A DNA stretch of 64,000 bases from Paracoccaceae bacterium (GTDB taxonomy: Bacteria > Pseudomonadota > Alphaproteobacteria > Rhodobacterales > Rhodobacteraceae), in assembly GCA_028284705.1 (NCBI GenBank), contig JANQRE010000004.1, positions 124,001 to 188,000 on the forward strand. Reading direction: 5' to 3'. Positions within the stretch are counted from its first letter, which is position 1; the number at the start of each line of letters is the position of its first letter. Positions 58,737 to 64,000 of this stretch are shown in pieces. A program made the translations under genes and the position numbers. The notes below the pieces were generated by a model, which was not told the DNA's origin, did not search any database, and saw only the letters and a program-made list of their open reading frames with translations.

Positions 58737-60716
58737 TCAAACCAGCTCCGCGTCGGTCATGATTTCGACAAGCGCGGGGCCATTGTGGGCCAGAGCCTCA
58801 GTCAGTGCATCCGGTAGCTCAGCGCTGTCTGTCACCTTGTGACCATGCGCGCGGCAGAGGCGGGCGAAGGCGGCGAAACTGGGGTTCACTAGATCGGTCT
58901 CCCAGACGGGCCATTCGCCGGAGCGCTGCTCCTTGGAAATTTTCCCAAGCTCGCCGTTGTGGAGCAGGATATGGGTGATATCCATGCCGTATTTGACCGC
59001 CGTGGTGAGGTCCATGGGGTATTGGCCAAACCCGCCATCGCCGGAGATCGAGACCACTTTGCGACCTTTCAGATGCGCTTTGTCCTGGGTCGCGGCCCAG
59101 GCGCCGATGGCCGCCGGGAAGCCGTAGCCGATGGAGCCCAGATAGCCGGACATGAGCACGCGCTGGCTGCCTTTTGTCTCGAGATAGCGCCCGAAGGAAT
59201 AGGTATTGTTGCCGACATCCACCGCGAAGATCGTGTCGTCAGGCACGAGTTGGCCGAGCAGGTCGAAAATCGCGAAGGAGTGGATGCCGCGGCCCGCTTC
59301 TTCGGCAAGTCGACGGGACTTCTCGGCGCGCCAGATCGACCAGCGGTCGGCCATTTCCGCCTTTTGGTCCACCGCGTCGGGGTTCTTTTTGATCTGACCG
59401 CCAGCGGCGTCGCAGAAGGCCCCGATTTCACCCCAGATCGGCAGATCGACCGCGTGGAATTTGCCAAGCTGCATGCGGTCGTAGTCGACCTGGATGATCT
59501 TCTCGTGGCTCGCGATGCCGGTGTGGTTCGAAAAGCTCGCGCCGAGCACAAGGATCAGGTCGGCTTCGTTCATGAACCAGGATGCAATGGGCGTGCCGGA
59601 ACGGCCCAGAACGCCGCCTCCGAGCGGGTGGCTGTCGGGGACAAGGCCCTTGGCTTTGAAAGTGGTCAGAACTGGCGAGCCGATCTTTTCAGCGAGCGAA
59701 ATGATCTGATCGCGTGCGCCATAAGCGCCATGGCCGACAATGATCACCGGGCGTTTTGCGCTGTTGAGTAGATCGACCGCGGCGGCGACATCCTCCGCCG
59801 AGGGCGTCACGCGGGTGCCGCCCATGCGGCCCTCGGGCGATCCGGCCTCTTGGTCTGATGGCAAGGTTTGCGTGTCGTCGGGGAAGATCAGATGCGCCAC
59901 ATTCTGTTCGACCAGCGCATTCTTGCAGGCCAGTGACATGAGCTCGGCGTGGTTCGAGGACGACAGCACGGTCTGCGAGAAGGTCGAGACCGCATCGAAG
60001 GCCGACGAGAGGTCGATGTCCTGAAACGCGCCGGGACCGAACACTTGGGTTTGCACTTGGCCCGTCAGCGCAAGCACTGGCGCGCGGTCGACTTTTGCGT
60101 CCCACATGCCGGTCAGCAGGTTCGTCGCACCCGGGCCCGCGATGGTCAGGCACGCCGCGGGCTCGGCGGTGAGTTTGCCATAGGCCGAGGCGGCGAAGGC
60201 GGCGACGCCCTCATGGCGGATGCCGTAATATTTCAGCTTCTTGTCGGCGACGGCGAGGCGGATGGCATCTGCAAGACCGAGGTTCGAGTGACCGACCATC
60301 CCGAAAACGGACTGCACGCCCCAATTGCTCATCGTCTCGACCATGACATCCGTCGTTGTGCGCTCATGGGGCGGTTCCGGTTCAATGCCGACGAAGATTT
60401 CGCCGTCGCGGATATCGAGCGGGAAGAGCTTCTGGCCGGTATCCTCATGTCCGCCCGGAGGGGCCCCGGTCAGCGGATCGAAATCCCAGCCATGCCAGGG
60501 GCAACGCAGCCAGCATTTGCCCTCGACGCCTTTCTCGATGGAACCTTCGCCCAAGGGGCCACGTTGGTGCGGACAGTGGTTGTCCATCGCGGTCCATTGG
60601 CCGTCGAAATGGACAAGGCAGATCGAGGTGGTGCGTGCGGTGACGGTTTTGACCCGACCCTCGGGCAGATCATCCACATGGCCCACGGAAATCCAGTCGA
60701 GCGTCTCGTCAATCAT
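58737..60716 (-). CDS. Rieske 2Fe-2S / thiamine pyrophosphate enzyme fusion
   Basis: This 659-residue protein is a fusion. Residues 1-115 are a Rieske domain with NHCPHQRGPLGEG (Cys48, His50) and RCPWHGWDFD (Cys72, His75). Residues 120-659 form an acetolactate-synthase / pyruvate-oxidase-type TPP enzyme: GIRHEGVAAFAASAYGKLT with the cofactor-activating Glu, AGPGATNLLTGMWDA, and the TPP-binding SGDGGFGQYPMDLTTAVKYGMDITHILLHN. The TPP part would decarboxylate a 2-keto acid, and the Rieske part could take the electrons. It is the last gene of a six-gene operon. The substrate is unknown. Confidence 0.88.
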   Translation of the reverse strand: MIDETLDWISVGHVDDLPEGRVKTVTARTTSICLVHFDGQWTAMDNHCPHQRGPLGEGSIEKGVEGKCWLRCPWHGWDFDPLTGAPPGGHEDTGQKLFPLDIRDGEIFVGIEPEPPHERTTTDVMVETMSNWGVQSVFGMVGHSNLGLADAIRLAVADKKLKYYGIRHEGVAAFAASAYGKLTAEPAACLTIAGPGATNLLTGMWDAKVDRAPVLALTGQVQTQVFGPGAFQDIDLSSAFDAVSTFSQTVLSSSNHAELMSLACKNALVEQNVAHLIFPDDTQTLPSDQEAGSPEGRMGGTRVTPSAEDVAAAVDLLNSAKRPVIIVGHGAYGARDQIISLAEKIGSPVLTTFKAKGLVPDSHPLGGGVLGRSGTPIASWFMNEADLILVLGASFSNHTGIASHEKIIQVDYDRMQLGKFHAVDLPIWGEIGAFCDAAGGQIKKNPDAVDQKAEMADRWSIWRAEKSRRLAEEAGRGIHSFAIFDLLGQLVPDDTIFAVDVGNNTYSFGRYLETKGSQRVLMSGYLGSIGYGFPAAIGAWAATQDKAHLKGRKVVSISGDGGFGQYPMDLTTAVKYGMDITHILLHNGELGKISKEQRSGEWPVWETDLVNPSFAAFARLCRAHGHKVTDSAELPDALTEALAHNGPALVEIMTDAELV

Positions 60717-60990
60717 GGGTGTCGTCCTCCTCAGGAGCCTTTGTCAGGCGGTCGATGATGTTTTGCACGAAGGTCAGGATCAGAAAGCCGCCGCAGGCCC
60801 AGATCAGCAGTTCAAATGGCGCGAATTGTGTGCCGCGCAGCCATCGGCCCAACAGCCCTCCGCCGGGGCGCAATTCCTCAATGCCGAATAGGCCGGAACG
60901 CGGCCAGAGATCAAAGAGCCAGAAGCGCGACAGGTAAAGCAGGATTACGGCGATCAACGCGACAATGAGGAGAATGAGGACCCGTTTCAT
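60709..60990 (-). CDS. Small membrane protein of the Rieske operon
   Basis: This 93-residue protein has two hydrophobic segments (VLILLIVALIAVILLYLSRFWLF and FELLIWACGGFLILTFVQNII), separated by a Gly/Arg-rich loop (GIEELRPGGGLLGRWLRGTQ), and ends with an acidic tail. It overlaps both neighbours by 4-8 bases, so it is translationally coupled. No family is recognised. It may anchor the Rieske-TPP protein to the membrane. Confidence 0.75.
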   Translation of the reverse strand: MKRVLILLIVALIAVILLYLSRFWLFDLWPRSGLFGIEELRPGGGLLGRWLRGTQFAPFELLIWACGGFLILTFVQNIIDRLTKAPEEDDTHD

Positions 60991-61751
60991 TCGTCCACCA
61001 AAGCGATTGTGGCCGGATCGATTTGGAGAACAAGCAGATCACCGCGGCGTTCGATGTCGCCCTCCAATGTCACAAATTGACCGACAAAGTCGTAGGCCTC
61101 TTGCGGCATCCGCGTGGCCTCCGGTCCGGTGATCAGCATGAATTCCTGCCCTTCCACGGGTTGCGTGGAGACAAAGACAGGAGGCACGTCGCCGGTGATG
61201 CAGAGATTGGCACAGGCCTTATGCGCGAGGCCACGTCCGGGGCGCATAGCGCCATAGAGGCATTTGCCGTCGCAAATCTCCCCGGCCAATTTCCAGCGCC
61301 CGAGCGGTTCTATTTCCATCGCCGGGGCGTTGCCCTCGACCGGGGAAATCCCGTTCCGCCCGCCACGCAATTGCATCATGTCGATCGTGCCGCGCTCCAG
61401 CACGATGCCCGAGATTTGCGCGAGTTGCCCCTCCAGACCCATCGCGCGCATATCGACGCCGGATTTCCCAGCGGCGGTGAGCATCATGGTCTTGCCAGGG
61501 GCGATCCGGTCATTGCCTTCGGTGACCCGCAGTATCGGGTAGGGGGTCAGCTCGACCACACCGGTGACCGTCTGACGCCCGAAATCGAAGCGGAAGCCGG
61601 TGTCTTCCGGCGCATCTTGCGTCGCGCCGATCAAAAGCCCCGCGCCGAAGAAGAGCACGAAGACGGCCAGCGAGATGAAGAGGGTGAAGCCTTTGAGGCC
61701 AGCCGGCAGGGGCAGATAACCCACGAAGAACGGTTCGTCTTTCCGGCTCAT
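60987..61751 (-). CDS. Membrane-anchored protein with four clustered cysteines
   Basis: This 254-residue protein has one N-terminal helix (GFTLFISLAVFVLFFGAGLLIG) and a periplasmic domain. Near residue 160 is a cysteine cluster, GEICDGKCLYGAMRPGRGLAHKACANLC, that could hold a metal or two disulfides, followed by an OB-fold-like end (DFVGQFVTLEGDIERRGDLLVLQIDP). It overlaps both neighbouring genes by 4 bases. No named family is recognised. It probably is a periplasmic subunit of the redox complex proposed for this operon. Confidence 0.78.
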   Translation of the reverse strand: MSRKDEPFFVGYLPLPAGLKGFTLFISLAVFVLFFGAGLLIGATQDAPEDTGFRFDFGRQTVTGVVELTPYPILRVTEGNDRIAPGKTMMLTAAGKSGVDMRAMGLEGQLAQISGIVLERGTIDMMQLRGGRNGISPVEGNAPAMEIEPLGRWKLAGEICDGKCLYGAMRPGRGLAHKACANLCITGDVPPVFVSTQPVEGQEFMLITGPEATRMPQEAYDFVGQFVTLEGDIERRGDLLVLQIDPATIALVDE

Positions 61752-62794
61752 GCGGGCACCTCCACAGGCTCAACCGGCGTGCCCGGCGGGTTCGCATCTC
61801 GGTGGACCTGCACATGGCCGTTTTCAATCCGCAGATTGTAGGTCGGGATCTTCTCGGTAAACGGGGCGGGCGAGCGCCCGTTGCGCACGTCATACTGGAA
61901 GCCATGCCAGGGGCAGGTGACGAGGCAGTCGATGATGCGCCCCTCGCCCAGCGGACCGTTCTGATGGGCGCAAGCATTTGATATTGCATTCAGTTTGCCC
62001 TCATGGCGGAACACGGCCACACGCTCGCCATTGGGCAGGATTTTAATCTTTGCGAGGCCCTCCTCGATCTCGGAAGCGTCACAAATGTCGATCCAGCCGT
62101 CTTGATCCGCGCCAAGCTCATCGCCGCGCCGATCCTCTTGCCAAGCGGCATAGGCGTGCAGTCCCGCCACCGTCAAAGCGCCGCCGATGAAGATGACAGT
62201 GAAGACGTGGTTCTGCTGATCCTGCAGGATGCCCAGAGACACGTGCGCCACCACGGCGACGTAAGCCAGGTAGATCGAGGCGTGGATCCGTTTCCAGACC
62301 GGTGGCGTAAGGAACTTCATCCAGAAATCATGGCTCGTGGCGGCGAGGATCAGAAGGCAGATCAGGGCGAAGATGCCGAAGGCCTCGAAGGGGAAACCGG
62401 CCAACTGGCCGTAGCTCGTGTTGGCAAATAGCAGGGCTTCGTATTTGTCCGAGTTTGAGAAAGCGAAGTACCAGTTCAGGATGTAACCCGCATGGGTGAT
62501 CGCCACGAAAGCCGTCATCACGCCGAAATGGCGGCGGTTATAGAGGAGCGGTAGGAAGCGGCGGTCGATCCGGGCGAGGGGGCCGATGCAGAGAATGACG
62601 GTCAGCATCAAAAACGCACAGGCCCCGAAGGCGCGGGCGTTATGGACTTGTGGGTTGATTGGCGCTTCGTGGCTGAGGACTTCCGGCGAGACGAAGAGGA
62701 AGACATAGAGAAACAGCGTCACCGCGATCAGCATCAACGCGTCATAGACCCATTTCGAGCGGTTCCATTGAACGGGGATGTACTTCACGCTCAT
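61748..62794 (-). CDS. Ferric-reductase-like membrane protein with C-terminal Rieske domain
   Basis: The 348 residues start at ATG 62794 (MSVKYIPVQWNR); the frame above it overlaps the next gene and is rejected. Residues 15-225 have about six helices of the ferric reductase-like / MsrQ type, with histidines in RRHFGVMTAFVAITHAGYILNWY and KRIHASIYLAYVAVVAHVSLG that could ligate heme b. The C-terminal 100 residues are a Rieske domain (SNACAHQNGPLGEG and TCPWHGFQYDVRNG). It can pass electrons between the membrane and a Rieske centre. It overlaps neighbours by 4 bases. Confidence 0.88.
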   Translation of the reverse strand: MSVKYIPVQWNRSKWVYDALMLIAVTLFLYVFLFVSPEVLSHEAPINPQVHNARAFGACAFLMLTVILCIGPLARIDRRFLPLLYNRRHFGVMTAFVAITHAGYILNWYFAFSNSDKYEALLFANTSYGQLAGFPFEAFGIFALICLLILAATSHDFWMKFLTPPVWKRIHASIYLAYVAVVAHVSLGILQDQQNHVFTVIFIGGALTVAGLHAYAAWQEDRRGDELGADQDGWIDICDASEIEEGLAKIKILPNGERVAVFRHEGKLNAISNACAHQNGPLGEGRIIDCLVTCPWHGFQYDVRNGRSPAPFTEKIPTYNLRIENGHVQVHRDANPPGTPVEPVEVPA

Positions 62795-63165
62795 TGGCTG
62801 GCCTCCGGGGCGGAGAGCTGCTCGGGCGCAATATGGGCAGGCCATTGCTGTCGGACCGACAGACCCGCGGCGATGACAAGCACGATTGCAATCGGCATCA
62901 CATAGGCGAAAATCCTGTGATTGTGACGGCGCGGTTTGTAGCGATGCGCCCAGTGATCGGTCTCGAATGCGAGGCAGTACCAGCGCCAAAGCACCAGCGG
63001 CCAGATCAACAGGATGCCGGGGATCAGAAGCGGACGGAAGACATAAGCGCCATCGGCATCCTCATCAATGCGGTCCATGCCGACGGTCAGGAAAACAAGG
63101 GCCACAAGCGCACCGATCGCGCCCCACCATTTCACCACCATCAGAAGGAATTCTGCTGTGTTCAT
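62791..63165 (-). CDS. Small membrane protein of the Rieske operon
   Basis: This 124-residue protein has three hydrophobic segments (EFLLMVVKWWGAIGALVALVFL, LLIPGILLIWPLVLWRWYCLAF and FAYVMPIAIVLVIAAGLSV) and a His-rich loop (WAHRYKPRRHNHRIF). It overlaps the glutamate-synthase-like gene by 4 bases upstream and the ferric-reductase-like gene by 4 bases downstream. No family is recognised; a membrane subunit is likely. Confidence 0.78.
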   Translation of the reverse strand: MNTAEFLLMVVKWWGAIGALVALVFLTVGMDRIDEDADGAYVFRPLLIPGILLIWPLVLWRWYCLAFETDHWAHRYKPRRHNHRIFAYVMPIAIVLVIAAGLSVRQQWPAHIAPEQLSAPEASQ

Positions 63166-64000
63166 GCGACCCCGCCATAGGCGACGCCCGACAGTTCAGC
63201 CATGTCCTTTTTCCAGGTCGTCAGATCGTTCTGATTGAACTTTGACAAGTGGTCGTGACCACAAGCCCGCGCCATGACCTGCATGAGTTCGACGGACGCG
63301 TTGAAGAAGTTCTCCAACCGCTTCGCCGATTTCTCCACCACGAGGCGGCTGACCAGATGCGGTTTCTGCGTCGCGATCCCGACCGGGCAATTGTTGGTGT
63401 GGCAGGCGCGCATGGCGAGGCACCCAATGGCCTGCATCGCCGAGTTCGACACCGCAACCGCATCCGCCCCAAGCGCCATGGCCTTGATGAAATCTGCCGG
63501 TTTTCTGAGGCCGCCGGTGATGACCAGCGTGACGTCACTGCGTCCCGAGACGTCGAGATGACGTCGCGCACGGGCGAGGGCAGGGATCGTCGGGACGGAG
63601 ATATTGTCGCGGAAAATGATCGGAGCGGCCCCGGTTCCGCCGCCACGCCCGTCGAGAATGACGTAATCGACCCCGACTTCGAGCGCGGCGTCGATGTCCT
63701 TCTCGATATGCTGCGCGGAGAGCTTATAACCTATTGGTATACCGCCGGTTTTGTCCCGTACTTCGTCGGCGAACTCCTTGATCTGGGCAACCTCTGTCCA
63801 GTCGGGGAAACGGGGAGGAGAGATCGCCGCCTCGCCTTCATCCAGTCCACGCACCGCAGCGATTTTGCCTTTCACCTTGTTGCCGGGCAGGTGACCGCCG
63901 GTGCCGGTTTTGGCGCCTTGGCCGCCCTTGAAATGGAAGGCTTGAACCTTGTCGAGCTTGTCCCATGAGAAGCCAAACCGCCCAGAGGCGAGTTCGTAGA
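63162..64000 (-). CDS. FMN-binding glutamate-synthase-like protein (5' end outside window)
   Basis: The frame is open to the window edge, so the N-terminal part is missing; about 279 residues are visible. The protein matches the FMN-barrel of glutamate synthase: FKGGQGAKTGTGGHLPGNKV, ISPPRFPDWTEVAQIKEF, YVILDGRGGGTGAAPIIF, VITGGLRKPADFIKAMALGADAVAVS, and MRACHTNNCPVGIATQ, where two of the three 3Fe-4S cysteines of GltS are seen. No amidotransferase domain is visible. Stand-alone proteins of this type occur as FMN oxidoreductases of unknown substrate. It is the first visible gene of the operon. Confidence 0.9.
   Translation of the reverse strand, partial: YELASGRFGFSWDKLDKVQAFHFKGGQGAKTGTGGHLPGNKVKGKIAAVRGLDEGEAAISPPRFPDWTEVAQIKEFADEVRDKTGGIPIGYKLSAQHIEKDIDAALEVGVDYVILDGRGGGTGAAPIIFRDNISVPTIPALARARRHLDVSGRSDVTLVITGGLRKPADFIKAMALGADAVAVSNSAMQAIGCLAMRACHTNNCPVGIATQKPHLVSRLVVEKSAKRLENFFNASVELMQVMARACGHDHLSKFNQNDLTTWKKDMAELSGVAYGGVA

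Follow-up and report, generated by a model that had tools for sequence, protein, structure and literature searches.

A modular, Rieske-rich redox gene cluster of alphaproteobacteria that may connect a thiamine-dependent keto-acid enzyme to a membrane haem core

Positions 58737 to 64000 of a 64,000-nucleotide stretch of the Paracoccaceae bacterium assembly GCA_028284705.1 (contig JANQRE010000004.1, positions 124,001 to 188,000 of the forward strand; "the window" below is this whole stretch) carry six overlapping minus-strand genes, called A to F in the order of their transcription, whose products include three Rieske proteins, namely an enzyme of the thiamine pyrophosphate (TPP) family, a flavin mononucleotide (FMN) protein of the glutamate-synthase type and a membrane haem protein. 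The present work records the content, order, domains, conserved ligands, co-occurrence and spread of these genes. The system to which they belong is modular and is not a single obligate six-gene unit: the membrane genes B, C, D and E form a core that recurs with or without A and F, and A and F occur with or without the core. The reading that is held here tentatively, with confidence a little below even, is that this modular system is wired by Rieske clusters, with the membrane core B-C-D-E receiving electrons that F draws from a keto acid.

The open reading frames (ORFs) overlap by 4 bases at the A/B, B/C, C/D and D/E junctions and by 8 bases at the E/F junction, as had been described in the original prediction, which was made from the letters of the window. 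F (58737..60716) encodes 659 amino acids comprising a Rieske domain and a TPP enzyme of the pyruvate oxidase type; E (60709..60990) encodes 93 amino acids with two predicted transmembrane segments; D (60987..61751) encodes a membrane-anchored protein of 254 amino acids with two OB-like barrels in its structure model and a Cys/His motif; C (61748..62794) encodes 348 amino acids, a ferric-reductase-type membrane haem protein like MsrQ, YedZ and STEAP with a C-terminal soluble-type Rieske domain; B (62791..63165) encodes 124 amino acids with three predicted transmembrane segments; and the window holds in 63162..64000 the 3' part of A, a Rieske-glutamate-synthase protein (FMN, 3Fe-4S) that continues beyond its edge. 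The length given for C is that from the ATG which overlaps B; the ORF listing instead begins at a TTG at 62989. The domain types that had been claimed for C (ferric reductase and Rieske) and F (Rieske and TPP) agree with Pfam, the two small membrane proteins of the prediction are B and E, and its membrane-anchored protein with four cysteines is D, which has a single N-terminal segment and the cysteines C160, C164, C180 and C184. The count of two Rieske centres has to be raised to three, the third being in A beyond the window edge.

A Pfam analysis of the six proteins places all three Rieske domains, those of A, C and F, in the soluble type, and finds no molybdoenzyme domain among the six genes. 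The ligand pattern of soluble-type Rieske domains, C-X-H...C-X2-H, is kept in 38 of 38 sequences of A, 79 of 79 of C and 52 of 52 of F (motifs were scored in near-complete matches only, and a few contigs are counted twice). Extra loop cysteines are the mark of bc1-type Rieske domains; they are absent, by eye, from all three domains of the window's cluster, which suggests from sequence that the clusters in A, C and F are low-potential and ferredoxin-type.

The conservation of the gene order was assessed in a scan of named genomes that returned 280 relatives of D, the counts being taken from the best 80, which are biased to close relatives; seven of these loci repeat stretches from the sampled genomes described below, and some stop at contig edges. 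Rhodobacteraceae, Neomegalonema, Geminicoccaceae and Hyphomicrobiales (Rhizobiaceae among them) are represented in the 80 loci, together with one unplaced alphaproteobacterium. The membrane core B-C-D-E is present at 77 of them, and the other three have D and E only, two beginning no more than 402 bases from D and the third (L155) having C in broken pieces. Orthologous A-B-C-D-E-F in fixed order is found at 24 loci, the core with F at 10, the core with A at 11, and the core alone at 32, where A or F may lie elsewhere in the same genomes. The TPP enzymes at L164 and L168 are only 28-29% identical to F, are not orthologues and are left out of the F counts, so that L168 is one of the 32 loci with the core alone. 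At L183, F lies upstream of the core in the opposite direction.

Among 198 genomes of the family, D occurs in 21, F in 13, and A or a glutamate-synthase relative of it in 36; judged by the limits of the matches, the Rieske part is included in 22 of these 36, in one of which the gene is split. When the window's own genome is left out (197 genomes, with D in 20 and Rieske-bearing A in 21), 11 of the 12 genomes with F also have D (p 6e-12) and 11 of the 12 have Rieske-bearing A (p 1e-11), values which, like the other Fisher values here, overstate independence because the genomes and the named loci are related by descent; A and D occur together in 12 of the 21 genomes with Rieske-bearing A. F adjoins the core in seven of its 13 family genomes, forms a pair with A away from or without the core in four (G001, G171, G125 and G126), and stands alone in two (G194 and G029). 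A sample of 385 genomes of the class contains F in 15, D in 16, and A or relatives in 14; without the window's own genome (384 genomes), six of 14 F genomes have D (p 3e-6) and seven have A. The earlier expectation of one six-gene system is not supported in that form, given the 32 loci with the core alone and the A and F genes that lie elsewhere; the unity of the system fails in part, the genes being scattered in some relatives, but the co-occurrence of F with the core and with A lies far above chance.

F is composed, according to Pfam, of a Rieske domain and the N, M and C domains of TPP_enzyme. Its best match in the PDB is the E. coli pyruvate dehydrogenase [cytochrome] (E 4e-62), followed by other TPP enzymes, among them acetolactate synthases and pyruvate oxidases. 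With the pyruvate oxidase models F reaches 378 bits for PRK08611, whose cut-off is 742, and 299 bits for PRK09124, whose cut-off is 792. The Rieske motif together with the catalytic RHE, and likewise the DGG of the TPP motif, are present in 52 of 52 scored sequences, and a stretch GK[IV][ST]KEQ just after the TPP motif is present in 51 of the 52; it is speculation that this stretch might mark a substrate with a second acidic group.

CDGSH motifs precede the Rieske domain of F in five genomes of the class. Three such proteins were profiled, of which two contain CDGSH, Fer4_19, Rieske and TPP domains and one contains CDGSH, Rieske and TPP domains, each having two CDGSH stretches; the genes at L213:8991-11648 and L214:9093-11705 encode giant single-chain fusions of two CDGSH stretches, Fer4_19, Rieske and the TPP enzyme. 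In this small sample, from which G541 was left out because a contig edge cuts the N-terminus of its F, six of the eight genomes with a Rieske-only F have D, whereas the search for D came up empty in all five with a CDGSH-bearing F (p 0.02). This distribution hints that electrons may leave F by one of two alternative outlets, the core or its own extra clusters (CDGSH, at times Fer4_19).

C matches the Ferric_reduct domain PF01794 with an E value of 2e-11 and 44.5 bits, above the cut-off of 28, and the Rieske domain with 9.6e-16. In 43 of 43 aligned sequences H89, H101, H155, H171, H184 and H213 are invariant, as are R87, R88 and the Rieske ligands C275, H277, C294 and H297. One study reports that the first of the canonical haem His residues is an Arg in YedZ and STEAP proteins, the remaining three being retained in YedZ and STEAP1, and it already lists a ferric reductase domain (FRD) model with Rieske (PMC3591440). 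The sequence of C fits the YedZ/STEAP pattern through R87, H101, H171 and H184, these positions having been assigned by spacing. Foldseek matches of the structure model of C are to Rieske ferredoxins of dioxygenases (carbazole dioxygenase ferredoxin, E 3e-8), with STEAP1 as a weaker match at rank 39. The Rieske domain of C would, by the positive-inside rule, be cytosolic.

For the remaining core proteins, B, D and E, neither Pfam nor NCBIfam gives a match at E 0.1; a simple hydropathy scan predicts three transmembrane segments in B, two in E and one, N-terminal, in D. The motif of D, CX3C-X12-HX2CX3C (C160-X3-C164, H177-X2-C180-X3-C184), is kept in 84 of 84 scored sequences, and a Cys/His pattern of this kind may bind metal. 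The model of D (pLDDT 84.7) has two barrels after the transmembrane segment; the top 50 Foldseek matches are mostly OB-fold proteins, with a best E of 0.002, none below 0.001 and none convincing, and no function is read from the best profile match to a solved structure, which has an E of 0.014.

The full frame of A occupies contig positions 187162-188844 (L003:7162-8844), so that the window edge cuts off its 5' part. Because the own ATG of many relatives (MNKT or similar) lies, by eye, at residue 25 of this frame, translation of A likely starts near contig position 188772. Pfam identifies a Rieske domain at residues 29-101 (1.9e-11), encoded outside the window, and Glu_synthase (PF01645) at residues 223-529 (2.9e-90), and finds no match to zf-CDGSH; the CX5CX4C motif is present in 38 of 38 relatives long enough for scoring. 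The earlier description of A as an FMN/3Fe-4S protein like glutamate synthase agrees with this domain and this motif. Against the GltB model A scores 136 bits, with a cut-off of 1047, over residues 238-525 only. Relatives in other genomes are 68-71% identical over approximately residues 150-559, and four of them carry CDGSH motifs in place of the Rieske domain, one such relative having been profiled. In the family genome G184 (L104:8808-10838) A is broken into two frames near genes that look by eye like transposases.

The spread of F extends to plasmids, where full-length orthologues (53-60% identity) occur in Halorarius, Haloferax, Halorubrum, Salinirubellus and Mycobacteroides abscessus. After these five, the next matches, judged on the best 40 of 157 records, do not exceed 35% identity, and they align only from residue 112-126 of F on, with two exceptions that start at residues 38 and 67. 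A, including its Rieske part, is on three of the same haloarchaeal plasmids as F; D was found on plasmids only in five Rhizobium records, at 42-45%; and no core gene was found on the plasmids that bear F, C matching these stretches only by its Rieske part. Where A and F are carried by haloarchaeal plasmids, their neighbours include varying sets of genes annotated as TauE/SafE, YeeE/YedE, DsrE, rhodanese or merA (L185, L187, L189, L190 and L231).

From these observations we infer an electron path, and with it a direction, a topology, a substrate and roles for A and the neighbouring antiporter. F would decarboxylate a 2-oxo acid on TPP, with its own Rieske cluster receiving the electrons, and its Rieske domain would dock on the core, where the cytosolic Rieske domain of C would accept them. 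The haem of the membrane domain of C would take the electrons across the bilayer, and their acceptor after C would be either the quinone pool or the Cys/His site of D, in the periplasm. A would be on the same Rieske wire, where it would either oxidise an amino acid to the keto acid of F or make glutamate with electrons from F, and the CDGSH (at times Fer4_19) domains of F might stand in for the core where the core is not found. The oxidation of keto acids is strongly reducing, and the potential of a ferredoxin-type Rieske cluster lies between it and that of quinone; because of this intermediate position the outward direction is favoured. A chain that brings electrons from keto-acid decarboxylation to the membrane had been part of the original prediction, and the domains fit it, though the chain itself is something that we infer from them and do not observe.

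Several results weigh against this proposal. The soluble pair A/F travels on haloarchaeal plasmids without a detectable core, a statement whose scope is the plasmids; nine family genomes have Rieske-bearing A without D, and only G126 of these has F; and D is missing from two of the eight genomes with a Rieske-only F. Since the core is present without F or A, it must also serve other donors. In an ungapped alignment of F with PoxB, an Asp and one Gly are kept at what we take to be the contact positions of flavin adenine dinucleotide (FAD) and most others are changed; F may have a FAD route to quinone like that of PoxB. For C, the pLDDT of the AlphaFold model is 77.9, a middling confidence, and clustering of the ORFs of 94 loci yielded no recurrent catabolic neighbour that would point to the substrate.

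A second explanation is a serious contender that nevertheless falls short of being probable. According to it the core acts like MsrQ/MsrP or DsbD in exporting electrons to the periplasm, where they keep cysteine pairs of D, or of a client, reduced, F and A being two of several cytosolic donors. The many loci that have the core without A and F are consistent with this explanation, as are the paired cysteines of D behind a single transmembrane segment and the match of C to the MsrQ model with its Arg-for-His signature; that match, however, reaches 39 bits where the cut-off is 130, the six genes include no molybdoenzyme domain, the topology of D is a prediction, and its Cys/His pattern may bind metal instead. 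It is very improbable that chance alone put these redox genes into one operon and that they share no function: A and F are indeed scattered in some genomes, and the neighbours of lone A or lone F look unrelated by eye, but the recurrence of the same order in other genomes argues against chance, as do the co-occurrence statistics and the presence of three Rieske fusions within one operon.

A further explanation, which is unlikely on present evidence, dispenses with a respiratory chain and makes the cluster a stress or osmotic module in which A makes glutamate as the counter-ion of potassium, decarboxylation by F consumes protons beside Na+ or K+/H+ antiporters, and the Rieske domains sense or buffer the redox state. 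Genes resembling a sodium/hydrogen exchanger are found no more than 3 kb from A or F at 23 of 88 loci, and at that distance from the core at none of 48 core-only loci (20 of 81 versus 0 of 47 once repeat contigs are removed); in 19 of the 23 cases at most 75 bases separate the gene from A, and in two from F. At the other 65 A/F loci the nearest 3 kb hold no antiporter of this kind, and the loci are not independent. The BLAST queries for these counts were drawn from A/F loci and missed KefB-like genes; a broader profile, run as well, gives the same counts within 3 kb, but the difference disappears once the full 20-kb stretches are counted (25 of 88 A/F loci versus 15 of 48 core-only loci) because a KefB-like gene, probably shared synteny, lies 6-9 kb from the core at 15 core-only loci, mostly of Tateyamaria (L029:47-1927 and 14 further). 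The module would also account for a Halorarius stretch that holds F, an antiporter directly after it, a potassium channel and A, and for the company of F, an FMN reductase and an antiporter both in an alphaproteobacterium (L214) and on the Mycobacteroides plasmid, where the three lie within 4 kb and the antiporter is 3-3.5 kb away, outside the 3-kb count. An apparent Mrp/mnh-type multisubunit cation/proton antiporter operon, identified by eye, precedes the window's own cluster on the same strand, past the end of the window (L003:9016-14963), and ends approximately 170-240 bases upstream of A; in the closest relative (L026/L105) no Mrp-like operon was seen next to A. The membrane haem core is left unexplained by a stress module.

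The other neighbours were read by eye at a selection of loci, covering A or F on its own, the two as a pair, and the core without either, and no catabolic pathway was conspicuous there. At nine loci, all titled Roseobacter (for example L116:13485-20666), genes that we take to encode a tungstate ABC transporter-like set and an Mrp/ApbC-type carrier lie downstream of the cluster; the tungstate-transporter-like set looks like local synteny. Weakly recurrent neighbours are a patatin-like gene (seven loci), an esterase (four), OpgC (three), YHS (two) and rhodanese (two), the patatin-like gene lying within the 20-kb neighbourhood of the core or F in differing lineages (L039, L041, L145, L165, L181, L182 and L214). 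In Rhizobium leguminosarum (L230:9070-12264) the core is followed by genes for a TetR regulator, a sigma factor, DUF1109, NrsF and a chlorite-dismutase-family protein, a possible hint of control by redox stress.

Although A, C and F can each be assigned to a known superfamily, their fusions appear to be undescribed, as do the core of four genes, in which B, D and E are in no known family, and the linkage of these elements: a search of the open-licence literature recognised no paper on the Rieske-TPP enzyme, on the Rieske-glutamate-synthase protein or on this cluster, and found no described pathway with this gene set, as the original prediction had held. F often occurs with a Rieske-glutamate-synthase partner and at times with a cation/proton antiporter. 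To our knowledge, few routes of electron disposal are known for TPP enzymes, namely lipoamide, FAD and 4Fe-4S ferredoxin. A broader proposal, which must be regarded as doubtful, is that F defines a class of 2-oxo-acid oxidases whose electrons would leave TPP by Rieske clusters (in some lineages CDGSH or Fer4_19) and not by FAD to quinone or by a 4Fe-4S ferredoxin, a class spread over alphaproteobacteria and over mycobacterial and haloarchaeal plasmids that in alphaproteobacteria would drive a new transmembrane haem conduit, B-C-D-E, to a periplasmic Cys/His centre. If this were true, the Rieske/CDGSH-fused TPP family would be an additional electron route for TPP enzymes, and a function would be gained for two orphan groups, one being the FRD-Rieske proteins and the other the fusions of a glutamate-synthase FMN domain with 2Fe-2S modules; marine isolates of the Roseobacter group and Haloferax are workable hosts in which the proposal is directly testable.

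F has the three TPP domains and the catalytic RHE in common with the PoxB/SpxB/PRK08611 family, which provides its best NCBIfam and PDB matches, whereas the N-terminal Rieske domain, preceded in some lineages by CDGSH domains, sets F apart, and F scores approximately half or less of the pyruvate oxidase family cut-offs. A shares its FMN domain and CX5CX4C motif with GltB, which differs in having a glutaminase domain, to which A has no Pfam match. The glutamate synthase FMN domain of A is also that of the type 5 CISD proteins, which carry a CDGSH pair where A has its Rieske domain; two sources respectively describe type 5 CISD as CDGSH fused to the glutamate synthase FMN domain (PMC3174974) and mention bacteria with the combination of CDGSH and Glu_synthase domains (PMC5859297). 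No description of the Rieske form of this fusion was found in the open-licence literature searched.

Among membrane proteins the closest comparison is with MsrQ/YedZ and STEAP. MsrQ has MsrP as its partner, whereas there is no MsrP-like gene among the six genes here. The Ferric_reduct domain, the Arg-for-His replacement and the places of H101, H171 and H184 are common to MsrQ/YedZ, STEAP and C, and to these C adds a C-terminal Rieske domain, the invariant H89, H155 and H213, and the partners B, D and E.

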